32,057 nt of DNA from Arcobacter sp. (lineage in GTDB: Bacteria; Campylobacterota; Campylobacteria; Campylobacterales; Sulfurimonadaceae). The stretch's first letter is position 1. Each line of letters opens with the position of its first letter. Positions 27-17,212 of the stretch are shown here, in pieces. The position numbers and the translations under genes are program-made. The DNA lies in NCBI GenBank assembly GCA_002733885.1, contig NVXJ01000014.1, positions 1 to 32,057 on the forward strand. The letters run 5' to 3'. The notes under the pieces are model-generated. The model was not told where the DNA came from and did no database searches. It saw only the letters and a list, made by a program, of their open reading frames with translations.

Positions 27-2609
27 TTGAATAAACAACAACTAGCAGCAAAAATTTGGGAATCAGCAAACCAGATGCGTTCAAAGATTGAAGCAAATGA
101 GTATAAAGATTACATCTTAGGATTTATTTTTTATAAATATTTGTCAAATAAACAGATTCAATTTGCAAAAAAAGAGGGTATGTCTGAGGAAGAGATAGTA
201 GCACTTAGTGAAGAAGATACTGATAGTGTTGATTATTTTAAAGAAAATATTGGCTATTTTATTTCTCATAAGGACCTGTTTTCAACATGGATTGAAATTG
301 GAAGTGATTTTGATGTTTCAAATGTAAGAGATGCTTTATCTGCTTTTAGTCGTTTAATTAGCCCTAATCACAAAAAACTCTTTGATGGTATCTTTGAAAC
401 TTTACAAACAGGACTAAGTAAGTTAGGAGATAGTTCTGCATCCCAAACCAAAGCTATCAGTAGTCTTATTCATTTAATCAAAGATATTCCTATGGATGGG
501 AAGCAAGATTATGATGTACTTGGTTTTGTTTATGAATATTTAATCAGTATGTTTGCCGCAAATGCAGGTAAAAAAGCAGGAGAATTTTATACCCCTCACG
601 AAGTTTCCCTATTAATGTCTGAAATCGTAGCTGAGCATTTAAAAGATAAAAAAGAGATACAGATTTATGATCCAACCAGTGGATCGGGTTCATTACTTAT
701 AAACATTGGTAGCAGTGTTGCCAAACATATGGATGATGAAAATAATATTAAGTATTATGCTCAAGAATTAAAAAAGAATACCTATAACCTTACTCGTATG
801 AACTTAGTGATGCGTGGGATTTTACCTGATAACATACGTACACGGAATGGGGATACCTTAGAAGATGATTGGCCTTACTTTAACGAGACCAACCCCGTAG
901 ACTCATATGAGGCTCTATATGTGGACGCGGTTGTTTCCAACCCACCATATTCACAAGCTTGGGAACCTGATCATAAAGAAGCTGATCCTCGTTATGCACG
1001 TTTTGGCTTGGCTCCTAAGACTAAGGCAGATTTTGCCTTTTTACTTCATGATCTTTATCACATTAAACCCGATGGTATTATGACCATTGTATTACCTCAT
1101 GGTGTTTTGTTCCGTGGTGGTCAAGAAGGTGCTATCCGTAAAAACCTCATTGAGCAAAATCATATAGATGCGATTATCGGCTTGCCTGCAAATATCTTCT
1201 TTGGAACAGGTATCCCTACGGTTGTTTTGGTCTTAAAACAAAAACGTGAAAATACTGATGTTTTAATCGTTGATGCTTCAAAAGGTTTTATCAAAGTAGG
1301 TAAAAACAACAAGCTCCAAGCTTCGGACATTAAAAAGATAACCGACACTGTTATTAAAAGAGAAACTAATGAGAAATACTCAAAAGTTGTAAGCAGGGAC
1401 TTCATCCGTGAAAATGAATACAACCTCAATATTCCACGATATGTTGATTCATCACAGGACGCTGAAAGCTGGGATATTTACGCCTCAATGTTTGGGGGTA
1501 TTCCTCAAACAGAGATTAATGCACTGCATAGCTATTGGGAAGCCTTACCGGGATTACGAAATGCTTTGTTTTCTGAAACATCTAGTGATTACGCTGCCTT
1601 AAAATGTGAAGATGTTAAAGAGACTATTACCCACCATGAAGATGTCAAGAAATTTACAACTAGCTATGACACATCTTTTAAGAATTTTGATGTTTTTCTT
1701 AAAGAAGAGTTATTAAATAAAATGCTGTCACTTAATATCTCTAAAGAAGAAGAGGTACTTAGTAATAATATCTTTACACGTCTAAAGTCTATTTCTTTAG
1801 TCGATAAATATGAGGCGTATCAACTACTCGATGATAGTTGGCTAAATATCTCCGCAGACTTAGAAATGATACAGACTGAAGGTTTTGAGACTACTAGACA
1901 AGTTGATCCACATATGGTTATTAAAAAGAAAAAAGGCAAAGATACAGAGGTCCAAGAAGGTTGGATAGGTCATATCATCCCTTTTGAACTGGTGCAAAAA
2001 ACTTATCTTAATGAAGAACTTCAAAATTTGCTACAAAAAGAAAACCGCCTAGTAGAGATAAGTTCAGCCTTTGAAGAAATTATCGACTCTTTGAGTGAAG
2101 AGGAAAAAGAGGCTGATACCCTTAAAGAAAGCAATGATGCCTTTGTTAATGCAGCGGTTATAAAAGAAGCCAAGCTACTAAGAGCAGCTATAAAGAAAAA
2201 TGGTGACTTTGCAGAAGATTCATTTGAAGTAAAAATACTAGAAGTGGATAAGCTCATCACTGAAGAGAAAAAAGTAAAAAAAGAGGTAAAAGCTCAATTT
2301 GAAGCATTGCATCTACATACTAAACAAACCATAGAAAAGCTTAGGGAGGGTCAAGTCTATGAATTACTAGAACTTAAGTGGATAGCTCCACTAGTAAGCT
2401 CTTTGAACAAGCTACCTGAAAGAATCATTAATGAACTAACCGCTAAAGTACAATCCTTAGCAGATAAGTACGCCACAACCTATGCTGATGTAGCAAAAAA
2501 GATAGACAGCACAGAAAAACAGTTATCGGCTTTAATTGACGAACTAACAGGTAATGAATTTGATATGAAGGGGCTTAGTGAGTTTAAGTCGTTTTTGAAG
2601 AGTGAATAG
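27..2609 (+). CDS. hsdM: Type I restriction-modification system, methyltransferase (M) subunit HsdM
   Basis: 860-aa ORF with HsdM N-terminal helical domain (LAAKIWESANQMRSKIEANEYKDYILGFIFYKYLS), N6-adenine MTase motifs (IYDPTSGSGSLLI, VVSNPPYS), GEFYTPHEV; TTG start; immediately followed by hsdS and hsdR. Confidence 0.95.
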   Translation: MNKQQLAAKIWESANQMRSKIEANEYKDYILGFIFYKYLSNKQIQFAKKEGMSEEEIVALSEEDTDSVDYFKENIGYFISHKDLFSTWIEIGSDFDVSNVRDALSAFSRLISPNHKKLFDGIFETLQTGLSKLGDSSASQTKAISSLIHLIKDIPMDGKQDYDVLGFVYEYLISMFAANAGKKAGEFYTPHEVSLLMSEIVAEHLKDKKEIQIYDPTSGSGSLLINIGSSVAKHMDDENNIKYYAQELKKNTYNLTRMNLVMRGILPDNIRTRNGDTLEDDWPYFNETNPVDSYEALYVDAVVSNPPYSQAWEPDHKEADPRYARFGLAPKTKADFAFLLHDLYHIKPDGIMTIVLPHGVLFRGGQEGAIRKNLIEQNHIDAIIGLPANIFFGTGIPTVVLVLKQKRENTDVLIVDASKGFIKVGKNNKLQASDIKKITDTVIKRETNEKYSKVVSRDFIRENEYNLNIPRYVDSSQDAESWDIYASMFGGIPQTEINALHSYWEALPGLRNALFSETSSDYAALKCEDVKETITHHEDVKKFTTSYDTSFKNFDVFLKEELLNKMLSLNISKEEEVLSNNIFTRLKSISLVDKYEAYQLLDDSWLNISADLEMIQTEGFETTRQVDPHMVIKKKKGKDTEVQEGWIGHIIPFELVQKTYLNEELQNLLQKENRLVEISSAFEEIIDSLSEEEKEADTLKESNDAFVNAAVIKEAKLLRAAIKKNGDFAEDSFEVKILEVDKLITEEKKVKKEVKAQFEALHLHTKQTIEKLREGQVYELLELKWIAPLVSSLNKLPERIINELTAKVQSLADKYATTYADVAKKIDSTEKQLSALIDELTGNEFDMKGLSEFKSFLKSE

Positions 2610-2610
2610 T

Positions 2611-3849
2611 ATGGCAGAAAAAAGTAAAATACCTGAAATCCGTTTTAAAGAATTTAGTGGGGAATGGGAAGAAAGAGAGTTAGGAAATCTTTGTTTAATA
2701 GGCGATATCGACCATAGAATGCCAGCAACAGTTACAGAGGGAATTCCGTATCTAATGACGGGAAGCTTTGTAGAAAATAATGGTCTAGATTTTGAAAACT
2801 CTAAACTAATATCAATTCAAGATTATGAACAATTGTCTAAAAAGATAAAACCCGAAGCTGGAGATCTTTTATTTGCACGTTATGCTTCCGTTGGATCAGT
2901 TAGATACGTTGAAACGAAAAAAAAATTCTTAATATCGTATTCTTGTGCAATTATTAAACACAACAAATCTATTAATGGAAAATACTTATTTAATTATGTA
3001 CAGTCAAATAAAGTTCAAAGTCAAATAGAATTAAATATTAATACTGGTTCACAACGAAATATAGGTATAGATTCGTTGAATCAACTTATAATTACTTTGC
3101 CAAAAAGAGAGCGGGAACAGGAGGCCATTGCAAATTTTTTAACAAGGAATGATACTCTTATTACATTACATCAGAAAAAGTATGACAAGCTTTTAAATCT
3201 AAAAAAAGCCATGCTCGAAAAAATGTTCCCGAAAAAGGGTGCAGATGTTCCTGAAATTCGTTTTAAGGGTTTTAGTGAGAAGTGGGAAGAGAAAGAGTTG
3301 GGAAACTATGCAAATTTTCGTAGAGGTTCATTCCCCCAACCTTATGGAAATAAAGAATGGTATGATGGTAAAGGATCAATGCCATTTGTACAAGTAGTTG
3401 ATGTAACAAAAAAGCTATTACTTGTACAAAATACAAAACAAAAAATCAGCACGATAGCCCAACCAAAAAGTGTATTTGTAGAAAAAGGAAAAGTTCTAGT
3501 AACATTACAAGGAAGTATTGGACGCGTTGCTATTGCTCAATATAATACTTATGTTGATAGAACTTTATTGATTTTTGAAAATTATAATGAGAAAACAGAT
3601 ACCCGTTTTTGGGCATATCTAATGCAAGAAAAATTCAATTTAGAAAAAAGAAAAGCTCCGGGTGGAACGATAAAAACTATAACAAAAGACGCATTATCTA
3701 AATTTCAAATAGTGATTCCTAAATATACGGAACAAACCAAAATTGGTAATTATTTTGAAAACCTAGATAAACTCCTATCTCTACATGAAGAAGAACTAAA
3801 AAAACTAAAAAATATAAAAAAAGCCTGTTTAGAAAAGATGTTTGTATGA
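2611..3849 (+). CDS. hsdS: Type I restriction-modification system, specificity (S) subunit HsdS
   Basis: Two TRD-type halves each beginning PEIRFK(E/G)FS..WEE(R/K)ELGN, ending in conserved helices (LKKAMLEKMFP / IKKACLEKMFV); ATG at 2611 is the likely start. Confidence 0.93.
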   Translation: MAEKSKIPEIRFKEFSGEWEERELGNLCLIGDIDHRMPATVTEGIPYLMTGSFVENNGLDFENSKLISIQDYEQLSKKIKPEAGDLLFARYASVGSVRYVETKKKFLISYSCAIIKHNKSINGKYLFNYVQSNKVQSQIELNINTGSQRNIGIDSLNQLIITLPKREREQEAIANFLTRNDTLITLHQKKYDKLLNLKKAMLEKMFPKKGADVPEIRFKGFSEKWEEKELGNYANFRRGSFPQPYGNKEWYDGKGSMPFVQVVDVTKKLLLVQNTKQKISTIAQPKSVFVEKGKVLVTLQGSIGRVAIAQYNTYVDRTLLIFENYNEKTDTRFWAYLMQEKFNLEKRKAPGGTIKTITKDALSKFQIVIPKYTEQTKIGNYFENLDKLLSLHEEELKKLKNIKKACLEKMFV

Positions 3850-3859
3850 AGGGCCTGCA

Positions 3860-6800
3860 ATGACATTTAAAAAAGAATCCGATTTTGAAGAAGCCTTAGT
3901 CCAGGAACTTAAAAACAAAGGGTGGGAAAACGAGGTCTTAAAGTATCCTAGCGAAGAGGATTTACTCAAAAACTGGGCAACTATCCTTTTTGAAAACAAC
4001 CGAGATATTGACCGACTAAATGACACCCCTTTAACTGATGGTGAAATGCAACAGATAGTAGAGCAGATAACAGACTTAAAAACACCCCTAAAACTTAACG
4101 GCTTTATCAACGGTAAGACGGTAGCCATCACTCGTGACAACCCTGATGATAGCTTGCATTTTAGAAAAGAGATTAGTCTTAAAATATATGACCGCCAAGA
4201 AATATCTGCGGGTCAAAGTCGTTACCAAATCGTACAACAGCCACAGTTTACAAGTAAGTCAAAAATCTTAAATGACCGCCGTGGGGATATAATACTTTTA
4301 ATAAATGGTATGCCAGTGATTCACATAGAGCTTAAAAGAAGCGGTGTTCCTGTTTCTCAAGCCTATCATCAAATAGAAAAATATTCGCACGAGGGTATCT
4401 TTAGCGGTCTGTTTTCTTTAGTACAGATATTTGTAGCAATGGAGCCAAAAGAAACGGTTTACTTCGCAAATCCTGGAGTAGATGGGACGTTTAACAAAGA
4501 CTTCTATTTTCATTGGGCTGATTTTAACAATGAGCCTATAAATGATTGGAAAGAGATTACTGCTACCTTGCTATCTATCCCTATGGCTCATCAGCTCATT
4601 GGTTTTTATACAGTTGCGGATGGTTCGGATGGTGTTCTTAAGGTGATGCGTAGTTATCAGTACTATGCTGCTAATGCAATATCTGACAAGGTCTCAAAAA
4701 CTGACTGGAAGAGTAAGAACTTACTGGGTGGATATGTGTGGCATACCACTGGCTCAGGTAAAACAATGACCAGTTTTAAATCAGCACAGCTTATAGCTAA
4801 CTCTAAAGATGCTGATAAAGTTATCTTCTTAATGGATAGGATTGAGCTTGGTACTCAATCTTTACGGGAGTATCAGGGTTTTGCTAGTGAAAGCGAAGAT
4901 GTACAGGCCACTGAAAATACAGGTGTACTTATCACGAAACTTAAAAGTGATGATCCTAAAAATACCCTTATCGTTAGTTCTATTCAGAAGATGAGTAACA
5001 TTAATGAAGAAGAAGGTGCATTAAAAGCCCATGACATAGAGTTGATAAATGCAAAAAGAATTGTTTTTATTATAGATGAAGCGCATCGGTCAACTTTTGG
5101 GGATATGCTTCTAAGTATTAAAAACACCTTTCCTTCTTCTTTGCTTTTTGGTTTTACAGGGACACCTATTCAAGAAGAGAACCAAAAGAAAATGAATACG
5201 ACTACTACTGTTTTTGGTGATGAATTGCATCGCTATAGCATTGCTGATGGTATACGTGATAAAAATGTTCTTGGTTTTGATCCCTACAAAGTAATGACAT
5301 ATAAGGACAAAGATTTAAGAAAAGCAGTAGCTTTAGCAAAAGCTAAGGCTAACGATGAAGTTGAAGCATTGAGCGATCCTAAGAAAAAAGAGGTTTTCAA
5401 TAAGTATATGAAGTCAGTAGAAATGGCTGGGTATATAGATGATGTAGGGAAGTATGTCAAAGGTATTGAAGATGAGCTACCTAAGTCTCAGTATTCGCGT
5501 GATGAGCATAAAGAACAAGTGGTTAAAGATATTGTTGAGAACTGGATAACCCTGAGTCAAAATAGTAAGTTCCATGCCATCTTTGCGACGCATAGTATAT
5601 CTGAGGCAATAGAGTATTATCGGTTGATAAAAGAAGCTAAGCCTGACTTGAAGATTACAGCCCTGTTTGACCCTAATATTGATAATGAAGATGGAATAGT
5701 CTTTAAGCAAGAGGGTTTAGTTGAAATTTTAGAAGATTATAATAAAAAGTACGAGCAAGATTTTATACTTGCAAATCACTCGAAGTTTAAAAAAGATATT
5801 GCGGCTAGACTAGCTCATAAAGAGCCTTATCTGAGGATAGACAGAACAGCAGATAAACAGATTGACCTTTTGATTGTTGTGGATCAAATGCTAACGGGGT
5901 TTGATTCTAAATGGTTAAATACACTTTACTTAGACAAGGTGCTTAAGTATGAAAATATCATTCAAGCTTTTTCACGAACAAATCGTCTGTTTAATATCCA
6001 TGAGAAGCCTTTTGGCACGATTCGTTATTATAGATATCCTCATACTATGGAAAGAAATATAAATGATGCGGTTAAGTTGTACTCGGGAGATAGACCTATT
6101 GGGTTATTTGCTCATAAGCTTGAAAGTAATATTAAAAAGTTAAATGCTCTTTATGGTGAAATTTCTGAATTATTTGAAAATGCTAAAGTGAAAAACTTCA
6201 AAAAACTTCCAGAAGACCTTTCTGAACGAGCTAAGTTTGCAAAGCTCTTCAAGGATTTTAATGCTCATTTAGAAGCAGCAACCATTCAAGGGTTTAAGTG
6301 GGACCAGTCAAAATATAGCTTTGGTGAAGGAAAAGAGAAATCAGAAGTAGAGCTAGACTTTGATGAAAGTATTTATCTAGTCCAAGTACTGCGATATAAA
6401 GAACTATCAAGTGGTGGAGGTGGAGAGGGAGGAAGTAATGAAGATGTTCCTTTTGATATTGATGGATACTTAACGGAGTTAGATACCGGGAAGATTGATT
6501 CTGATTATATGAATTCACGCTTTGAAAAGTTTCTGAGAACGCTTAGAGAAGTTGGTGCTGATAGTGAAAGCATTCAAAAAACCTTAGATGAACTACATAA
6601 GTCCTTTGCTTCGTTATCTCAAGAAGATCAAAAGTACGCCAACATTCTTATTCATGATGTACAAAGTGGTGAGCTGACATTAGACAGTACAAAAAGCTTT
6701 AGAGAATATATAACAGAGTATCAATCTAATGCTAAAAACACCGAGATACATACAATTTGTGAAGTATTTGGTTTAGATGAAGCGAAGCTAAACACTATGA

Positions 6801-7009
6801 TGAACTCGGGTGTCTCTAAATCAAACATAAATGAATACGGACGCTTTGATGAGTTAAAGAGTAGTATGGACAAGGCTAAGGCTAAAGCTTATTTTGAAGA
6901 GTTGGAAGGCTCCACTCTGTCAACATTTAAAGTAAATCTAAAAGCCTATAACTTGATTCAGGAATTTGTAATACGTGGTGGGTTTGAATTAAGTGATAGC
7001 AAGCAATAA
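3860..7009 (+). CDS. hsdR: Type I restriction-modification system, restriction/translocase (R) subunit HsdR
   Basis: Large ORF with Walker A (WHTTGSGKTMTSFK), DEAH box (FIIDEAHRST), GFTGTPI helicase motif, N-terminal nuclease-like region (NGMPVIHIELKRSG); ORF track start 3842 is TTG, ATG at 3860 is likelier. Confidence 0.94.
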   Translation: MTFKKESDFEEALVQELKNKGWENEVLKYPSEEDLLKNWATILFENNRDIDRLNDTPLTDGEMQQIVEQITDLKTPLKLNGFINGKTVAITRDNPDDSLHFRKEISLKIYDRQEISAGQSRYQIVQQPQFTSKSKILNDRRGDIILLINGMPVIHIELKRSGVPVSQAYHQIEKYSHEGIFSGLFSLVQIFVAMEPKETVYFANPGVDGTFNKDFYFHWADFNNEPINDWKEITATLLSIPMAHQLIGFYTVADGSDGVLKVMRSYQYYAANAISDKVSKTDWKSKNLLGGYVWHTTGSGKTMTSFKSAQLIANSKDADKVIFLMDRIELGTQSLREYQGFASESEDVQATENTGVLITKLKSDDPKNTLIVSSIQKMSNINEEEGALKAHDIELINAKRIVFIIDEAHRSTFGDMLLSIKNTFPSSLLFGFTGTPIQEENQKKMNTTTTVFGDELHRYSIADGIRDKNVLGFDPYKVMTYKDKDLRKAVALAKAKANDEVEALSDPKKKEVFNKYMKSVEMAGYIDDVGKYVKGIEDELPKSQYSRDEHKEQVVKDIVENWITLSQNSKFHAIFATHSISEAIEYYRLIKEAKPDLKITALFDPNIDNEDGIVFKQEGLVEILEDYNKKYEQDFILANHSKFKKDIAARLAHKEPYLRIDRTADKQIDLLIVVDQMLTGFDSKWLNTLYLDKVLKYENIIQAFSRTNRLFNIHEKPFGTIRYYRYPHTMERNINDAVKLYSGDRPIGLFAHKLESNIKKLNALYGEISELFENAKVKNFKKLPEDLSERAKFAKLFKDFNAHLEAATIQGFKWDQSKYSFGEGKEKSEVELDFDESIYLVQVLRYKELSSGGGGEGGSNEDVPFDIDGYLTELDTGKIDSDYMNSRFEKFLRTLREVGADSESIQKTLDELHKSFASLSQEDQKYANILIHDVQSGELTLDSTKSFREYITEYQSNAKNTEIHTICEVFGLDEAKLNTMMNSGVSKSNINEYGRFDELKSSMDKAKAKAYFEELEGSTLSTFKVNLKAYNLIQEFVIRGGFELSDSKQ

Positions 7010-7046
7010 AGCCTAGGTTGTTTTAGGGCTCTATAAGGAGCTTAAA

Positions 7047-7112
7047 ATGAAAAAAGTTTTTTTTAGAACATGGGTATGGATTTTATATAAAAATCCTTTT
7101 ATGGTGTCTTAA
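7047..7112 (+). CDS. Possible 21-aa small ORF (MKKVFFRTWVWILYKNPFMVS) or gene remnant
   Basis: Short ORF preceded by a good Shine-Dalgarno (aaggagcttaaaATG), in the hsdR to AAA ATPase gap. Confidence 0.2.
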   Translation: MKKVFFRTWVWILYKNPFMVS

Positions 7113-7324
7113 AAGTGATTTTACATAGGTTTAACCTTGACCATCTAGAATGCAAGTAGATTATGAATTAATACCCGAAAATGCTTATTCTCCAATTACT
7201 AGATGAAAGTATTTAAAGAGATTCTTGAGCAAGCTGGGAATTTTAAAAAGTATTAGAAATGATTGAGTATAAATATATTCTATTAGGAACTACTTTATTA
7301 CATTGAAAAAAAGGTTGAACAAAT

Positions 7325-9220
7325 ATGAAAAATATGGAACTGATTTATATATGGATTTATAAGTTTAGAGATCTTCCCGAAAAACAAGATTATAATTTAA
7401 CAGGTAAATTTAATATTAAATTTGATTTTGATAAAAATAAATTATCCATAAAGTATAATGAGAAATTTGACAAAGGAATTAGTGGTTACTTTCAAAAAAA
7501 TATTTCTGTTAGTATGTTTGTAGGGAAAAATGGAACAGGTAAAAGCAGTTTATTGGATGTAATTCGAAGTGGATCAGATTTAACAACAGATTTGATAACA
7601 AAAGCTTCAACTTTGTATCCGTATCAATTTGGTATTTATTATAATAAGGTAAACAAAGAACTTATTTTCAAGGGTATAAGTTTCGATAAGGGCAAAAATA
7701 AATTCTCTCTGAGAGAAGGACAAACAAAGTTCGTTGTAAAACTTGACACTCTGAAAATCAATAAAAATAGTTGTGCAATAATAGATGAAGGTTATAAGGA
7801 GATCTTGAAAGAAGAGGTAGCTAAAAATATATATTTTACTTCATCAAATGACACTTCATTTCCAATGATGACAAAAGAAGAACATCTAAGTTCCAATCTC
7901 GAAGATATTTCAGATTCTTATCAGTATGATAAAGTTTCTGAAGCAATACGTACAACATATAAAAGTAAAATTTTTAGCTTTAAACAACTAAAAATATTTT
8001 ATGAAAATACACAAATAGCTGATGGAATTACTGCGTTATATGGTGACAATATTAAGTTGCCTTCTGATTTTATTATGCCTAAAATACTAAGAATCCAAAT
8101 TAGGGAAACCGAAGTCAAAAAAAGAGCTGAAGGTTTACATAAAGAACAATCACACACAGAAGAAACTGTTGAATTTTACGATAGATTGAAATTATTTATA
8201 GAAAATGGAAATAAAAATAAAAATAATTATGTAGATTATATTAAATACATAGCAATCATGAATTTCTTTAATATACATTTAAGAACTATTGATGTAACTA
8301 AATATACCAAATTTTTCAAAATGCTACATGCGTTTAATAATAGCTCTGACTCATTGTCGGTAAGTGTAAAAAGTTCTGATCTTAAAGATCTGATTAGTTC
8401 TATCTGTGAAGTTAAAACAGAGATGTCAACTATCAATAAAGAATATTTTAGTCAGATTGACTCATTACTTGAATCCTTAAAAACATATGAGTTTAATAAC
8501 GAAATAAGTACATTCGAACTTCCTATTGAAGAAAATAAAGATTCCTTATTAAAAGTTATTGAATCACATAAAGATTTAACAGTAACAGTACCTCCCTTTT
8601 TAACATTTGAATTTGGCCCAAGAATGTCATCTGGACAGAAACAATTATTTTTCTTTTTTGGAAAAATATTTGCTGCTTTAAACTCCAAGTTTTCTGGTGA
8701 AAAAGTTAAAGATGATGAGACAATACTATTAATATTAGATGAACCTGACAACTTTTTACACCCCGAATGGCAACGCCTTTTTATATCTATATTAACAGAC
8801 TATTTAGCGTTAAATTATTCAGAAATCTATTTTAATATTCTGATTGCTACACATTCCCCTCTGATGCTGTCAGACATACCAAAAGAGAATATTATTTTCC
8901 TAGATACAGATAAGGATAATAATACCTTCATAAAAGCATTTGAAGGTGAAACTATGCTTGCAAACATACATTCTGTACTAGCTGATGGGTTCTTTTTAGA
9001 ACACACGGTAGGAGAAAAGAGCCTAAAGGTGATAAATGATTTAATTAAAAGGAGCAATGCTGTAGTTGAAAATAAAAGTCAGGAAAATATTGATAACTAT
9101 AATGAATGTATAAAGAGATATGAGTTTTTATATGAGCATACAGGAGAAAAATATTTAAAAAACTTAATAAAAGAACATATGGACATTGTTGATGATATTA
9201 CAAGAAAGAAGCAATTGTGA
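7325..9220 (+). CDS. AAA/ABC-type ATPase, Septu PtuA-like defense ATPase
   Basis: Walker A (FVGKNGTGKSSLLDVI), ABC signature-like MSSGQKQ, Walker B LLILDEPDNFLHPEWQR, H-loop ATHSPLML; overlaps an HNH gene downstream. Confidence 0.75.
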   Translation: MKNMELIYIWIYKFRDLPEKQDYNLTGKFNIKFDFDKNKLSIKYNEKFDKGISGYFQKNISVSMFVGKNGTGKSSLLDVIRSGSDLTTDLITKASTLYPYQFGIYYNKVNKELIFKGISFDKGKNKFSLREGQTKFVVKLDTLKINKNSCAIIDEGYKEILKEEVAKNIYFTSSNDTSFPMMTKEEHLSSNLEDISDSYQYDKVSEAIRTTYKSKIFSFKQLKIFYENTQIADGITALYGDNIKLPSDFIMPKILRIQIRETEVKKRAEGLHKEQSHTEETVEFYDRLKLFIENGNKNKNNYVDYIKYIAIMNFFNIHLRTIDVTKYTKFFKMLHAFNNSSDSLSVSVKSSDLKDLISSICEVKTEMSTINKEYFSQIDSLLESLKTYEFNNEISTFELPIEENKDSLLKVIESHKDLTVTVPPFLTFEFGPRMSSGQKQLFFFFGKIFAALNSKFSGEKVKDDETILLILDEPDNFLHPEWQRLFISILTDYLALNYSEIYFNILIATHSPLMLSDIPKENIIFLDTDKDNNTFIKAFEGETMLANIHSVLADGFFLEHTVGEKSLKVINDLIKRSNAVVENKSQENIDNYNECIKRYEFLYEHTGEKYLKNLIKEHMDIVDDITRKKQL

Positions 9221-10416
9221 TAAAAATTTCTTATCCAATAGACCCTATTGAACTCCAAAAGTTTAAACAGGATTATATTGATATTTTTTTTAAATACGTT
9301 CAATATAGAGATGCAGTTGAAGATACATATAAAATAAAATCAAAATTAAATAATCTTGGAATACCATCAATTGATATAAAAATATTATTAGTTGAAGACT
9401 TCAGCACACTATGTGAAAAAGAAGAAAAAATTGACTATTTAAAATTGTCGAGTGCATACTTTACAAAATATCCTGAAAAGGATCTAAAAGTTGAGGACTA
9501 TTGTACTAAATATAAATCTAAAGTTTTGAAGGCACTAAATTATGAGGGTAGACAAGCCCAAATATCCAATTTTTTTATGCAAAATAATGACAAATTACAA
9601 TTAGGAACCTGTTACACATGTAATATTGATTTTATTAATATGTTTGATGATATTGGAGATTATCAAAATTCTGTAGAGTTTTGTAATGAGGCTGATGCGA
9701 TTGAATTGCAAAAAATCGAGAAAATAGATGAAGTACAGGCTTCTAAAATTATTAAAATAAGAAATATCAGCTTATTAACTTCTATCTCTCAATTATCATC
9801 AGTATTAACTGCAGAGGAAATTGATTTCCTTAATAATATGACTTTAAAACAACAATATAAGCATTTTACATTGGATCATTTTCTTGACAAAGGTAGCAAC
9901 CCAATATTGTCATTAAGTTTATTCAATTTTGTGCCTATGTGTTATCCATGCAATAGTCTTTTTAAAAGAACTTTACCAATAGTAGTTGATAAAAAGAAAG
10001 ATTGCTATTTGTCTCCTACTCACAAAGACTATATGTTTGATGCTAACGTATCGTTCTCTTATATAAATCATAATCCAACGAGTAAAATTGATAATGTGGA
10101 AGATTTTCAATTAAAGCTTGCCTATAAAGATGATGCTTACAAAATTCATTCAAGAATATTTAAACTGGATGGACGGTATAAAGCACATAAAGAAATTGTA
10201 CTTGATCTGCATAATAATTCAATAGATTATTCTGAAACTCAAATAAAAGAGTTTGCAAAAATGTCTAAGAATAATACTATTGAAAATAGGTCAAATATAA
10301 AAAAAGTAATATTTGGAAAAGAAATTTTTGACGGAGAGGTACAAAAGATTCCATTAACAAAACTAAAAAGGGATATTGCAAAACAGATAGGTATTGATGG
10401 CGTAAAGGAAACTTGA
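9217..10416 (+). CDS. HNH-type protein, putative nuclease partner of the upstream ATPase (Septu PtuB-like)
   Basis: CYTCN ... FTLDHFLDKGSNPILSLSLFNFVPMCYPCNSLFK arrangement (two CxxC zinc knuckles flanking DHF/N); GTG start overlaps upstream TGA (gtgA). Confidence 0.68.
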   Translation: MIKISYPIDPIELQKFKQDYIDIFFKYVQYRDAVEDTYKIKSKLNNLGIPSIDIKILLVEDFSTLCEKEEKIDYLKLSSAYFTKYPEKDLKVEDYCTKYKSKVLKALNYEGRQAQISNFFMQNNDKLQLGTCYTCNIDFINMFDDIGDYQNSVEFCNEADAIELQKIEKIDEVQASKIIKIRNISLLTSISQLSSVLTAEEIDFLNNMTLKQQYKHFTLDHFLDKGSNPILSLSLFNFVPMCYPCNSLFKRTLPIVVDKKKDCYLSPTHKDYMFDANVSFSYINHNPTSKIDNVEDFQLKLAYKDDAYKIHSRIFKLDGRYKAHKEIVLDLHNNSIDYSETQIKEFAKMSKNNTIENRSNIKKVIFGKEIFDGEVQKIPLTKLKRDIAKQIGIDGVKET

Positions 10417-10435
10417 AATATAAATGAATCAAGTG

Positions 10436-10456
10436 ACTTTATAGTAAAGTTTTTTT
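10436..10456 (+). terminator. Putative rho-independent terminator of the plus-strand ATPase/HNH operon
   Basis: acttta-tag-taaagt stem followed by tttttt. Confidence 0.5.
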
Positions 10457-10518
10457 GATATTAGATGAATCATTAGAAAGTGATGCATACTTTGAACAAT
10501 CCCCCCGATAAGGATTGC

Positions 10519-11370
10519 TTATTGAATTTTATAGCTGAAAAATTGGATGTCACCGAAAAACTCTTTGAATTTTAAAAAGTAATCTTCTCTTAAGATTAAG
10601 TCACATCCTTCGACTTTTGCAATGTTAGAGCCATGTCCAACTAAATCAGTTCTCCATTGTCGAAACTCTAATATTACTTCATTGCTATCATTTAAAGCCT
10701 TTAGTCCATTGTTAAAATCATCTAATTTTAATTCTAACGCATCAATTATAGATTGATGTAACCACAAAATATTATCAGATTCTATGCTGTTGAAATTTTT
10801 AGTAAAACCAATTATAAAATTTTCTCTATAATAAAAGGAATTTTTCCAAATTAGAAAAGATGGAAGAAACTGAGCAAAAGGGTTCTCTTCGCCAAATATA
10901 CTTAATCCTTCAAACAGAATACTATGGCCCTTTCTTCCAAAACCATGAGGATCTTCAATCATTTCATTTTCAAATTTTGCAATCCTTACAAAACCATTTT
11001 CATACTCTAAGTTCGTTTTAAAGCCTATATCAGTCTCTGATGGTCGCTTAGTATTTGGTCTTTCAATTATAGAATTTTGAGTGGCTATTAAGGTCTTCAT
11101 ATCTATTTTTATATATTCTTCAAAAATTACAGTATCTTTATAATTCGTATGCAGGTGTTTACTTACCTCACTAAAAATAATATCTTCAAGTAAAATATTG
11201 GGAGATAACATCTTATAGCTTCTGTTTGAAAAAATATTTTCTAGGATATATCCATTTTTTTCAATACTCGCCTGAATACCTTCAATAATTTCTTCAGTTT
11301 CTACTCCTATCGTATTTAGATACATAAGATACTTGTTTCGTATTATTGTGTCTTTCAATTCATCAAACAT
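10519..11370 (-). CDS. Uncharacterised 283-aa protein, translationally coupled to the STAND NTPase
   Basis: ORF with start overlapping the stop of the 1598-aa ORF by 8 nt (same strand, downstream); no family recognised; C-terminal EFRQWRTDLVGHGSNIAKVEGCDLILREDYF looks conserved-domain-like. Confidence 0.75.
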   Translation of the reverse strand: MFDELKDTIIRNKYLMYLNTIGVETEEIIEGIQASIEKNGYILENIFSNRSYKMLSPNILLEDIIFSEVSKHLHTNYKDTVIFEEYIKIDMKTLIATQNSIIERPNTKRPSETDIGFKTNLEYENGFVRIAKFENEMIEDPHGFGRKGHSILFEGLSIFGEENPFAQFLPSFLIWKNSFYYRENFIIGFTKNFNSIESDNILWLHQSIIDALELKLDDFNNGLKALNDSNEVILEFRQWRTDLVGHGSNIAKVEGCDLILREDYFLKFKEFFGDIQFFSYKIQ

Positions 11371-14300
11371 TGTCAGTTCTTTCGACTAGTTCTCTCAAAA
11401 TATTTTGAATGTATAAATTATTAATCTTTACTTCTTTTATATCAATTTTCAGGGCTTTAAAAAAAATATTGTTACTGTTCTCTTGTAATAAAAATATTTC
11501 TAATAAAGCAGCAATAGATACTTCTGGAAATTTCTTAATATGTTGAAAGAACCACTTAAAAGGTTTTATCAAAAGAGTGCTATCGTAAATGAAAATGTAA
11601 TTGATGGCAAAAACTATTTCTTTTTGAACAAAAGAATCTAAGTTTGTGATTTTTACTAGGATTACAACTATAGCAAGCTCATCCTCATTCATTAGCTCTA
11701 AGCTTTTACTTTTAATATCTTTCCATCTAAAATCATTATCATCGGGTAGTCTATATTCTATAGATTCAAAGCCTGTCTGATACATAGATAAGATATCCTC
11801 TTTTTTTAACCCTGCATATTCAAAAGCGATAATTAAATTAGCAGTAGATTTTGAACCATACCCAAAGTTCGAAAACATTTTAAATAAGCTTTGAGATAAT
11901 ATATCTAAAGTTTCTTTTGGATTAATTTGTACAGCATCTTTTAAAGCTTGTTTATTTACAAACTGAGAATACCAGTCATCTTTTGAATAAACATAAATAT
12001 GTACTAAAAGAAATATCTTTGTGTTGTTTGATATAGATAATGAATTGACTAAATGTCTTAGTTGTTCAAAGTAATTATTACTGCTTAGAAGTCTTTTTTG
12101 AATAAGTGGCAGGACAATAGCTATTACCAATTGGTCATCATTTTTTTCTGATAGATAAAAGAACATAGTATTTAAATTCTTATCAGATAAATCATCTTTT
12201 TTCTCAAAATACTTATTGATTTCATCAATCGTCTTGTTTGATAGTATCAATCTATTTATATCAAAGCTTTTGTCGACGGTTTCTCTTAAACTATTTTGTA
12301 TATTAGAAAAATTATTACGACTGTTTTCTTCTTGTTTTATATCTAATGATACATTTAGCAAGTTTTTGAGCACTTGAAGCTTTTGCGTCGTTTTTACACT
12401 TAAGGAGTCATATGAATTGTTAAGGTCTCTTGCTAAAATATTTATAAGTGATTGTTTAGCTGTTTTTCGATCTATAGGTATAAGAAAGTTAATGTTATCA
12501 GAAAAGCTATTTATGTAATCATTATTTGTATTCACTGGAGTTAATCTGAATAAAAAATTTAAGATAATTGGATTTACATTATTGCTGTGTTGAATATAAT
12601 AAACAAACATATAATCAAGCTTCCAAAAATACGGACTGTTTAATAGTTGGTCTATTAAATATATAGAAGAAAGTCTATCATCAACTTTTAAAAATTCTTT
12701 GAACCATTCTGTAGTTAACCACCTAGTACCTTTATTGTCATCAGTATGTTTCATAACAGCATCAGTTAAATATTTTAGTTTTTTTGTATATTTCTTTGCA
12801 AACTTATTATCAAGAGTATTTATTGAGCTTAAAGGTTCAATTATTTCTTCAAGTGTTCTATCTTTATGAAATGTATAACTAGTTAAGTATCGAGATCCTA
12901 TCTTTAATGCTTTCTTAGCTTTTCCAATTCGACCTAGTTTAGAATAAGCAATGGCTTTTTTGAGCTTGTACTCACAATAATAATTATAGTTTTCATCTTT
13001 TTGCTCAATATTATTAATGACATTAAGTATAAAGTTTTCTGTTACTTCATTAAGATTATTTAATAATATATCAATCAATAAACCATATGGCAGTATCCCC
13101 ATTTGTGTATTATTTAGATATCCCATAGTTCCAAAAGAAATTCGCTCTAAAGATTTAATAGTCTTTTCCCAAGAATGTGATGATTTTATATACATAAGGG
13201 CATGCTCTATGCTTTGTTTAATGATGAAACTATGTTCTCTTGTTAAGTCTATAGCTCTTGGCTTATCTTTAAAAGGTTCAATATCACTGGCTAATAGTTC
13301 GAAATTTTCCACTAATACTTCTTCAAGTAAAGCATGATTTTTAAACTTGGAGTTGTTCAAGTCATTTTCTATAATTATATTTCTAAGTCTAAATTTGATC
13401 CAATTATAAAAGAAGTTTTTTGATGGGATTGTCTTTTCAAAATTACGAAGTGCCTCAATGTTATAAGATGCATACATATTTACTAGTAAAAAGAAGCTCT
13501 TTAAGTTTTTTATTTCTAAATAATCATTGACAAAGTCTAAATTTAACTCTTCTAAAACAAGGTGTCGCTTCATGACAGTAACTAAAATTCTTTGTTGGCA
13601 TTTAGTTCTATTTAAAACCTTATTTATTAGACTTGCAACTTGTTGTTTTTTGTCAGCTTGAATAGAATCATACAGTTCTAATATCTTATTAAAACCGATT
13701 TGGTTGGAAACTTCTTTAATTAGTATCTGAAAAAAGTCTTTGTATTCAGGATCCAGAAGCTCTTTAAATTCTGCAACTAATTCAGTTTCAGAAGCTATTA
13801 ATGAACTAATAAAATAATGATAGTCTTCTAATGGAATGTCAGTTTCAAAATAATCTTCTAAAATACTCCAATTTGGAATATAACCATTTATCTGAGATAT
13901 ATAAAAAGCTTTTGCAGTTATTTCATTACTGAAAGTTTTCTCTCCATCAAAAAAAAGAATTTTGTTTGCTGTATCAAAACCATAAATTAAACCAATCGCT
14001 TCAAAATATAATTCAAAGTTTGTTAAAAACTCGCTATGATAATCCTCAGATAGAGTAGTATATATCGTTCTATTTAATTCACTAATATATATGTAAAGTG
14101 GCCAATCTTGAGTTTCTCTAGCTGTATATAAAAAATTGGTATAATTTATTTTTATTACATTCTCTGAATAACCACGATATAAGCTTTTTGTTAAAAAATC
14201 ATTTGTCGCATATCTTTTTATTTTTTTATACTTTTTTAATTTAATGTAGTATTTTAGTAGATATCTATATGATTTGGCATTTTTGTAAAAACCTTTTTTC

Positions 14301-16159
14301 TTTAACCATTTAGCGATATCACTATATACTTCTTCTAAATTTGTATTTAGTTCAAGCTTTTCAATATTAAACCTTCTAAAACTATCATGATAAAGCTTTA
14401 TACCACCTCTTGAAATATTTTCAACAATTACTGGCGATAAGATCTTTAAATTATTATCAATATGATGGCTACGAGGAATAAGCTCACGCAATTCTTCTTT
14501 AGTAACGGAAAACTCTAAACAAGATAGTATTTCAGATGTTAGGTTTTCATCAATTTGTTCTGTTAAATATTCATAATATGATTTAAGATTAAAATCATAC
14601 TTTGGTAATTCTTCAATTAAATTTACGGTGATATTCTCGTGAAGAAGTGTTCTTATAATATATGTTAAATAGAGTGGATTAGCTTCACATTTTTCAAAAA
14701 TATATTCAGACAATGGTTTTGTATTAAGAAGTGTGTTTTCTAAAGAATACTTGCCCATTAACTCGACGGTATCTTCGATATTCCATTTAGGAATTTTATA
14801 CTTAACATATTCAAATTTTTCTATTAAAGTATTGATTTCACTAACAGGCTGAGAACCTAATACAATAAATATATTTTCAGGTAAATTTATTTTAGAAATA
14901 GACTCAATTATTTTAGTTTTATCTTCAGCTAATGTAGATGAGCTTTTTAAGACTCTATCAATATGGTCTAGTCCATCAATGACAATAATTAATTCATGAT
15001 GGACATGAGTTAAAAGTAAATTAAGTTCGTCTAAATCTGATGTATAAAGTTTACCTTTTACTTCTAGCAAGTTTGGGAATTCATTTATAATATCAGCAAT
15101 CAAGTTACCAAAAAAAACATCAGAGCTTACTCTTTTTTCTATATCGTTATCTTCTGTAGCAGTATAACAATAATGTCGAATAACTTTTTTTGAGCTGTTC
15201 TTTAAATGCTCTATGAAATTTGTTAGAAACCAAGACTTCCCACTTCCTGGTTCGCCAATAAGCAAAGTTTTTTTATATTCAATGACTTTACTTTCTAATA
15301 AAGTGTATTTACTATTGTTTATAATATTCTTAGTTTGGTCTATTTCAAACTTTTGCTCAATCTTACCGAAGTCAGTTTTGACTCCTAAATCTCTTAATAC
15401 ATCTGATACTGAAACTTCTGCGGATCTAGTTCTATACTCACCTACTTTTTTTGCAAAGATAATTAAAAATTGATTTATATTAATATCATCATTTGGATAC
15501 TGTGATATTCCTAGTTTTTCTGCTTGTTGATATAAAATATTTTCTAAATAACTAGGAGCACTGAAGTCTAAACTTGCTTTTGGAAGCTCTACTTCTATAA
15601 TTAGTTCATCACAGAACTTTTTAAAATCAGTTCTATTAATATGATTAGTTTCTACATAGGCTTTTAAACTATCCCATCGATTGAAGTTTTTGGGATTTTC
15701 TTCCCATAAATTATCAAGATTTATTTTGTAACTTTTTGTTGAGTAGTCTTGGAACGATGAAGTTGAATGTGATAAAGAATCTAATACTCTTGTTATATCA
15801 CTATCAGTAGCTTCATCCCATGCTAGACATAATCTAAACTCACTATCTTCTGTATTAAGTTCTTTCCATGTTTCATAAAGCTTGTGAATGGCAAGGCTAT
15901 AAGGAGAGTCAGATGAAAGATAAGATTTCGTTAGTTTTTTTGCAACGGTGTCATTACTATATTTAATTTGTTTACGTTTGATTGTTAAACCATTAGTAAT
16001 AACTAAATCATCAAACCTATCAGGGATGTCTCCAGTAGTGTGTTTTTTGTCAATAGAAAAAATACTATTTACATTTCCTAATAATATCTCTTGTAAGATA
16101 AAATAACATGTTAATATGTCTTGATAGTCATAACCCTCATGGGCATTATTTAAACTCAC
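11363..16159 (-). CDS. STAND/NACHT-like NTPase with N-terminal Cap4/DUF4297-like nuclease domain (Avs-like antiphage protein)
   Basis: 1598 aa; N-terminus AHEGYDYQDILTCYFILQEIL...DRFDDLVI...IKRKQIKYS (PD-(D/E)xK-like D...QxK); Walker A LLIGEPGSGKSWFL; Walker B LIIVIDGLDHIDR; IVLGSQP sensor-like motif; long helical C-terminal half with no motif I could identify. Confidence 0.75.
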   Translation of the reverse strand: MSLNNAHEGYDYQDILTCYFILQEILLGNVNSIFSIDKKHTTGDIPDRFDDLVITNGLTIKRKQIKYSNDTVAKKLTKSYLSSDSPYSLAIHKLYETWKELNTEDSEFRLCLAWDEATDSDITRVLDSLSHSTSSFQDYSTKSYKINLDNLWEENPKNFNRWDSLKAYVETNHINRTDFKKFCDELIIEVELPKASLDFSAPSYLENILYQQAEKLGISQYPNDDININQFLIIFAKKVGEYRTRSAEVSVSDVLRDLGVKTDFGKIEQKFEIDQTKNIINNSKYTLLESKVIEYKKTLLIGEPGSGKSWFLTNFIEHLKNSSKKVIRHYCYTATEDNDIEKRVSSDVFFGNLIADIINEFPNLLEVKGKLYTSDLDELNLLLTHVHHELIIVIDGLDHIDRVLKSSSTLAEDKTKIIESISKINLPENIFIVLGSQPVSEINTLIEKFEYVKYKIPKWNIEDTVELMGKYSLENTLLNTKPLSEYIFEKCEANPLYLTYIIRTLLHENITVNLIEELPKYDFNLKSYYEYLTEQIDENLTSEILSCLEFSVTKEELRELIPRSHHIDNNLKILSPVIVENISRGGIKLYHDSFRRFNIEKLELNTNLEEVYSDIAKWLKKKGFYKNAKSYRYLLKYYIKLKKYKKIKRYATNDFLTKSLYRGYSENVIKINYTNFLYTARETQDWPLYIYISELNRTIYTTLSEDYHSEFLTNFELYFEAIGLIYGFDTANKILFFDGEKTFSNEITAKAFYISQINGYIPNWSILEDYFETDIPLEDYHYFISSLIASETELVAEFKELLDPEYKDFFQILIKEVSNQIGFNKILELYDSIQADKKQQVASLINKVLNRTKCQQRILVTVMKRHLVLEELNLDFVNDYLEIKNLKSFFLLVNMYASYNIEALRNFEKTIPSKNFFYNWIKFRLRNIIIENDLNNSKFKNHALLEEVLVENFELLASDIEPFKDKPRAIDLTREHSFIIKQSIEHALMYIKSSHSWEKTIKSLERISFGTMGYLNNTQMGILPYGLLIDILLNNLNEVTENFILNVINNIEQKDENYNYYCEYKLKKAIAYSKLGRIGKAKKALKIGSRYLTSYTFHKDRTLEEIIEPLSSINTLDNKFAKKYTKKLKYLTDAVMKHTDDNKGTRWLTTEWFKEFLKVDDRLSSIYLIDQLLNSPYFWKLDYMFVYYIQHSNNVNPIILNFLFRLTPVNTNNDYINSFSDNINFLIPIDRKTAKQSLINILARDLNNSYDSLSVKTTQKLQVLKNLLNVSLDIKQEENSRNNFSNIQNSLRETVDKSFDINRLILSNKTIDEINKYFEKKDDLSDKNLNTMFFYLSEKNDDQLVIAIVLPLIQKRLLSSNNYFEQLRHLVNSLSISNNTKIFLLVHIYVYSKDDWYSQFVNKQALKDAVQINPKETLDILSQSLFKMFSNFGYGSKSTANLIIAFEYAGLKKEDILSMYQTGFESIEYRLPDDNDFRWKDIKSKSLELMNEDELAIVVILVKITNLDSFVQKEIVFAINYIFIYDSTLLIKPFKWFFQHIKKFPEVSIAALLEIFLLQENSNNIFFKALKIDIKEVKINNLYIQNILRELVERTDNV

Positions 16160-16479: not shown

Positions 16480-17052
16480 TTAAGTCAATGCAACCGATCT
16501 CATACCCCCAAGGCTTTCATATATCACCATGATAATAGCCATACCGATAATGCCCTCAGCAAAACCTATGCTTCCGCCCGTTACATAGTTAAGTATGTAG
16601 CCAATAGCCTTGAGGTTAGTCAGCATATAATTACTAAGGGCCAAAATACCAATGCCCACGATAAGATAGGTAAGAAGTTTATGCTTATACCTAAAACGAA
16701 TATAATCACCCATGGTAATGAAACGGTGCTTTTGTGAGAGAGCATAGAGCTTAGGTGCATACAGCATATATCCACCCACAATTGCTATCATAAAGGTAAC
16801 TGAGACTAAAAAGAACCAGCCATTTCTATAAGCCGAACCTGCAAATCCTATAAGTGAGTTTCCACTATACTGAGTGGCGTACATGGTTAAAAATAAGATA
16901 CTCACACCAAAGCCCGCACCCCCAAGATAAAAGTCTTGCATGGTGTTTTCTTTAGACTTTAAAAGTCCAACAATGCCCACACCAATAAGAGAAACAAGGT
17001 AAAGCACTAAAAAGATAGTTCCTTGGGTGCCTAAAATACCCTTATCCATCAT
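16480..17052 (-). pseudogene. Truncated sodium:solute symporter (SSS) family transporter, N-terminal portion only
   Basis: SSS features (TMQDFYLGG.GFGVSILFLTMYATQYSGNSLIGFAGSAYRNG, ITMGDYIRFRYKHK, YESLGGMRSVALT) then immediate stop where full-length members continue (T-D-x-x-Q and further TM helices). Confidence 0.75.
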
Positions 17053-17212
17053 CTGTGTCCCAAGAGGTTTGAATATGATAAATAAGTACAATAGCATATA
17101 AGATACTCATACCCATAGAAACCCAAGCCCATAAGGGTACACCTGCGTAGGGAGTTGAAGGAAGTAAGGGAAGTGTTAATAATAATAAAAAAAGTGAAAG
17201 TTTGTATATCAT
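17042..17212 (-). CDS. DUF3311-like small membrane protein preceding the SSS transporter
   Basis: 56-aa ORF MIYKLSLFLLLLTLPLLPSTPYAGVPLWAWVSMGMSILYAIVLIYHIQTSWDTDDG overlapping the SSS start (ATGATGGATAA); size, position and P-x-GVPLW motif resemble DUF3311 partners of SSS transporters. Confidence 0.55.
   Translation of the reverse strand: MIYKLSLFLLLLTLPLLPSTPYAGVPLWAWVSMGMSILYAIVLIYHIQTSWDTDDG

Follow-up and report, generated by a model that had tools for sequence, protein, structure and literature searches.

The window, i.e. the whole stretch of DNA analysed here (32,057 nt), is a complete contig from a draft genome of 3.15 Mb. It features a pair of genes coding for a large and a small protein (Table 1), which were correctly delineated, together with their overlap, in an earlier note. 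Translation of the two genes is expected to be coupled via this 8-nt overlap. The large gene is present as a single copy in the draft genome and both genes are AT-rich, with a GC content of 0.25-0.29 across them versus 0.32-0.42 over most of the flanking sequence. The small gene is separated by 102 nt from a convergent neighbour: there is no further gene at 10416-10519 and no downstream Avs3b. The overlapping two-gene layout is found again at nine other loci, and the overlap is 8 nt long at eight of the nine intact joints and 1 nt long (TAATG) at the other (L009). No conserved slippery site that could give a frameshifted fusion product was seen in the compared joint sequences. An origin of the split by random decay or through a sequencing error was ruled out, because the same joint recurs at intact loci, where the small proteins share 36-57% identity with that of the window.

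Table 1. Coordinates of the gene pair, its joint and the predicted domains in the window.
Feature	Position	Strand	Basis
Large subunit gene	11363-16159	minus	ORF, 1598 aa, GTG start
Predicted N-terminal Cap4/DUF4297-like PD-(D/E)xK nuclease domain, residues 1-210 (D50, D51, Q64, K66)	15530-16159	minus	weak PADLOC matches, invariant residues, model
NACHT/STAND NTPase with the helical domains after it, residues about 261-640 (Walker A GEPGSGKS, Walker B IIVIDGLDHIDR)	14240-15379	minus	Pfam, Foldseek
C-terminal helical region, residues about 641-1598 (~950 aa)	11363-14239	minus	colinear match to single-chain relatives, E 8e-23 and 1.6e-7
Stop/start overlap, 8 nt, ATGTTTGA	11363-11370	minus	joint sequence
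Small subunit gene	10519-11370	minus	ORF, 283 aa, ATG start
Small subunit as probable split-off C-terminal domain; helical at residues 1-86 and beta-rich at residues 116-282	10519-11370	minus	hhalign to Pseudanabaena C-terminus, Foldseek to Avs3 8dgc

The GYDYQ, DRFDDL, KRKQIKYS, GEPGSGKS and IIVIDGLDHIDR motifs, from which the earlier note had read a Cap4/DUF4297-like nuclease followed by a STAND/NACHT-like NTPase, are all in the large protein, and both assignments hold up. The N-terminal motifs exceed what chance would produce, as judged from their conservation, since 13 residues are invariant across 15 relatives (H7, G9, Y12, Q13, D14, D37, K39, D47, F49, D50, D51, Q64 and K66). The N-terminal 210 residues of these relatives show weak but repeated matches to Cap4-type nuclease models of PADLOC: the CBASS Cap4 effector model in nine members (best 6.6e-6), SAVED_PDDEXK in 10 and LmuA in six. 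The Pfam Cap4 model PF14130 gives no match above its curated cut-off (one of 13 members matched, E 0.16). An AlphaFold2 model of residues 1-640 (nine sequences, mean pLDDT 76) displays the helix-strand-strand-strand-helix-strand order expected of the PD-(D/E)xK core and places D50/D51 and Q64/K66 on neighbouring strands. The N-terminus is a predicted PD-(D/E)xK-like core whose catalytic-type residues are invariant, and the nuclease fold on which the earlier note had staked its reading is found in the model.

The NTPase is all that Pfam recognises in the large protein: NPHP3_N scores above the cut-off (1.8e-7) and NACHT below its curated cut-off (4e-5). When the model of residues 1-640 is compared to the PDB with Foldseek the top match is Avs3 (8dgc, E 9.7e-13), followed by NLR-type proteins of plants and animals (NRC2, APAF1) and Avs4; the match to Avs3 will owe part of its strength to the shared NTPase fold. 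A direct sequence search of the PDB returns nothing for the large protein or its N-terminal profile, and the 640-aa N-terminal profile obtains weak P-loop matches in the PDB and nothing else. Full-length homologs of the large protein with 44-59% identity are found in Moraxella, Pseudoalteromonas, Vibrio, Gallibacterium and Arcobacter. The mean pairwise identity is 0.58-0.69 in the N-terminal half (0.69 in the nuclease) versus 0.43-0.50 for the helical region; the small protein has values of 0.42-0.60. Such lower conservation toward the C-terminal part is as would be expected if a sensor lay there.

The association of the two genes is strict. The 3' end of the large gene or of a close relative is visible at ten loci, namely those of the window, Moraxella, Pseudoalteromonas (three loci), Vibrio, Arcobacter, Gallibacterium, an uncultured gammaproteobacterium (spread over two contigs) and a genome of the same family as the window, and the small gene directly follows in all 10. 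Three of these (L003, L010 and L013) are 87-94% alike, leaving about eight independent cases. No orphan small gene was found in 597 genomes (369 gammaproteobacterial and 228 of the same family) or in 72,556 plasmids. Hence, the obligate pairing proposed in the earlier note, which had called for such a survey of neighbourhoods, is borne out and rare co-occurrence was not seen. The pairwise identities of the two subunits are also correlated (Pearson 0.957, Spearman 0.68; 28 non-independent pairs). At the Gallibacterium locus (L019) stops interrupt the small gene (13682-14553), whereas the large one is open. The system is rare, with a presence in one of the 369 gammaproteobacterial and two of the 228 same-family genomes; some copies are on plasmids, and no relatives were found on phage and viral contigs. 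More relatives probably exist, because the scan of the collection was based on two peptide patterns and a single genome for each species.

The genomic neighbourhood of the pair is that of a defence island. On one side the window carries type I restriction-modification genes, hsdM, hsdS and hsdR (27-7009), and an ATPase with a second gene (7325-10416), which match the PADLOC candidate system PDC-M62A/B (3e-49 and 2e-31) and are convergent with the split pair. Defence neighbours at other loci include PD-Lambda-4_A in Moraxella and a TmtA-like gene in the same-family genome; in the latter (L034), the pair is flanked by another, different STAND-like gene (1377 aa) on one side and by the TmtA-like gene on the other (2057-6190 and 11891-14950, both minus). 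A sodium/solute symporter gene is in two pieces, one in the window (16480-17097, minus) and the other, its second half, on a further contig (C36, 10663-11415; L055). Next to the latter piece are three adjacent recombinase-like genes (9283-10527, 6870-9305 and 5315-6877; site-specific, as judged by eye), suggesting that the defence island was inserted at the symporter gene by a Tn554-like element.

The small protein matches no Pfam, NCBIfam or PADLOC family and a direct PDB sequence search with it obtains weak matches only. The window's version is without a 7-residue stretch (ASFVGxD, before SNIAK) that is present in the compared intact relatives. A key to its identity is provided by single-chain relatives of 2005-2113 aa, for which we found no published description as far as we searched: these are from Pseudanabaena (L004, 2005 aa), Leifsonia (L018, 2041 aa) and another actinobacterium (L035, 2113 aa). 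When the large-protein profile is divided into four consecutive slices, each aligns with the profile of these chains and their order is kept (E 2.8e-29, 8e-59, 7.6e-23 and 1.6e-7). The profile of the small protein matches the C-terminus of the Pseudanabaena chain (hhalign E 1.9e-7, 183 columns), the remaining slices of this chain scoring E 0.1 or worse. The C-termini of the two actinobacterial chains behave similarly but more weakly (E 0.008-0.1), with the Pseudanabaena chain alone giving a clear match. The single-chain profile in turn aligns end to end with ten Avs3a sequences (E 6.3e-20, 1812 columns), and its C-terminus with that of Avs3a (E 4.5e-4, against 0.18 or worse for the other slices of Avs3a). 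By way of this bridge alignment the large protein ends at about residue 1660 of the Klebsiella Avs3a, in which roughly residues 1780-2040 correspond to the small protein.

Structure comparison points the same way. With its AlphaFold2 model (pLDDT 61.5) as query, the small protein retrieves Avs3 8dgc, through both of its chains, as the sole significant PDB entry in Foldseek (E 6.6e-5, prob 1.00, 350,542 chains; TM-score about 0.34); the next entry has E 0.077 and prob 0.06, and a comparison with viral structures yields nothing significant. The Avs3 link is carried by the single-chain bridge and this modest-confidence model, because a direct comparison of the small-family profile with Avs3a is not significant (E 0.28-0.4), and this part of the identification is accordingly weaker than the Pseudanabaena part. 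These profile and model comparisons indicate that the small protein is the receptor's own C-terminal domain and neither an added accessory nor Avs3b. The earlier note had left the partner unrecognised and suggested an accessory protein acting as sensor, regulator or second effector. The partner can now be placed, and the idea of an independent accessory, regulator or second effector gives way to its placement as the C-terminal domain of the single-chain relatives and Avs3.

Several alternatives have to be weighed against this. Strictly paired, overlapping genes would also suit a toxin-restraint pair, in which the small protein is an immunity-like regulator or inhibitor restraining the nuclease and not part of a sensor. 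However, its position and homology are those of a receptor C-terminus, and the broken small gene beside an open large gene in Gallibacterium argues against an essential inhibitor; we hence consider this improbable. A comparably low probability attaches to the architecture being as we read it with plasmids or other mobile DNA, rather than phage, as the main target: some copies do occur on plasmids, but the closest studied architecture is that of Avs1-4, whose nucleases cleave DNA upon recognising phage terminase or portal proteins (PMC12931631).

Less probable still is a small protein that is a divergent Avs3b, the add-on accessory of AVAST type III, and not a split domain. The gene order would allow it: at eight of ten examined Avs3a loci a small gene (210-297 aa) lies downstream, mostly overlapping the end of avs3a in the same position as in the window and annotated as avs3b in two records. 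Yet the structural match is to the main chain of Avs3, and the homologous domain is fused in Pseudanabaena. Moreover, Avs3a exceeds the large protein in length by about 400-500 aa, and it is into this missing C-terminal stretch that the small protein falls by the bridge alignment. With a profile E-value of 0.35 against Avs3b, the identification was rejected. Finally, a second effector enzyme, for which several invariant polar residues might speak, is very unlikely for a protein that lacks any family match and has many conserved residues that are W, G, N or aliphatic, few of them kept in the fused relatives.

In light of the above, we think that the pair probably encodes a single antiphage receptor of the Avs-like (AVAST, NLR-like) kind, produced in the form of two polypeptides, with the small protein being its split-off C-terminal domain. 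The divergent Avs-like system envisaged in the earlier note is supported by the Avs3 fold matches and the defence-island context. We infer the antiphage function, the trigger, the assembly of the two chains and the cleavage of DNA as follows. The large protein would have its STAND NTPase kept closed in a resting cell, and its long helical region, with the small protein docked at the end of that region, would form the target-binding surface. Binding of a conserved phage protein (by analogy with Avs3, the large terminase subunit) would cause the NTPase to bind ATP and oligomerise, and the N-terminal Cap4-like PD-(D/E)xK domains, meeting in the oligomer, would then cut DNA, thereby killing or stalling the infected cell. 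The C-terminal domain of Avs3 reportedly contributes to terminase recognition. As for the predicted effector, a DUF4297-type nuclease domain in the DUF4297-HerA system degrades dsDNA and aborts infection (PMC11291478).

In the tree of the N-terminal half the split forms constitute one clade (100/100), which is sister to the single-chain forms (98/98). The Avs1b-like and Avs3a proteins fall outside both, their long branches leaving the outer order unsure. Since the outgroups are single-chain, the sequences are most simply explained by one split in the ancestor of the split clade. The N-terminal part of two proteins of Rhizobium/Sinorhizobium (2051/2065 aa; L005 4923-11078 and L038 6341-12538) is also colinear with the large protein (E 1e-15 for L005); these possess an Avs1b-like NTPase and represent another, unassigned Avs-like group.

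Avs proteins are the bacterial counterpart of the NLR immune receptors. In a single Avs chain of 2000 residues the sensing part, and how binding is relayed from it, are hard to test; the natural split offers two separately expressible pieces, which would allow separate assays of docking, of the binding of a trigger and of nuclease activation. A more speculative idea, which we hold to be rather unlikely, is that the sensor end as a free subunit serves as a detachable recognition module in a two-part bacterial NLR: if true, receptor assembly, and perhaps target choice, would be set by whether and which C-terminal subunit docks. The pair also extends the Avs-like receptors to a set missed by the defence-finding models used here.

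The order of an N-terminal effector, a central STAND NTPase and a long C-terminal region is the general layout of the Avs/AVAST systems, from which the sensor role is drawn by analogy. None of the Avs models of PADLOC and NCBIfam scores either protein of the window at E<=1, and in the literature searched, mostly without subscription papers, we found no earlier description of split Avs receptors, although one may exist. Among known systems Avs3a (PDB 8dgc) shares the order of Cap4-type nuclease, STAND NTPase, long helical region and C-terminal domain, and is the best PDB fold match for both proteins (9.7e-13 for the NTPase part and 6.6e-5 for the C-terminal domain, from models of moderate and low-moderate confidence respectively). 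However, it is one chain of 2017-2191 aa, whereas the window has 1598 + 283 aa with the C-terminal domain as a separate gene, lacks Avs3b and is not recognised by the PADLOC Avs3 models. By sequence profile the NTPase region of Avs1b is among the closest (E 6.9e-14), nearer than that of Avs3a, and the single-chain relatives weakly match the PADLOC/NCBIfam Avs1b models. Thus, of the Avs2/Avs3-type affinity suggested in the earlier note the fold and architecture stand, matching Avs3, whereas by NTPase sequence the Avs1b-like proteins are the closest. The pair differs from Avs1, whose annotated gene layout is seen in Priestia, in the absence of adjacent Avs1a and Avs1c and in a Cap4-like N-terminus in place of the protease annotated for Avs1b. 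The A component of the PD-Lambda-4 defence system, with an Avs4-like N-terminus by PADLOC, shows at most a marginal match to the family. The CBASS Cap4 and DUF4297-HerA nucleases have the N-terminal signature (D50, D51, Q64, K66) in common with the large protein; unlike them, the pair has no SAVED or HerA partner and its predicted nuclease would be STAND-controlled. The single-chain relatives are colinear with the large and small proteins together, yet are one chain. The split pair is a new, rare variant of the known Avs-type receptors.
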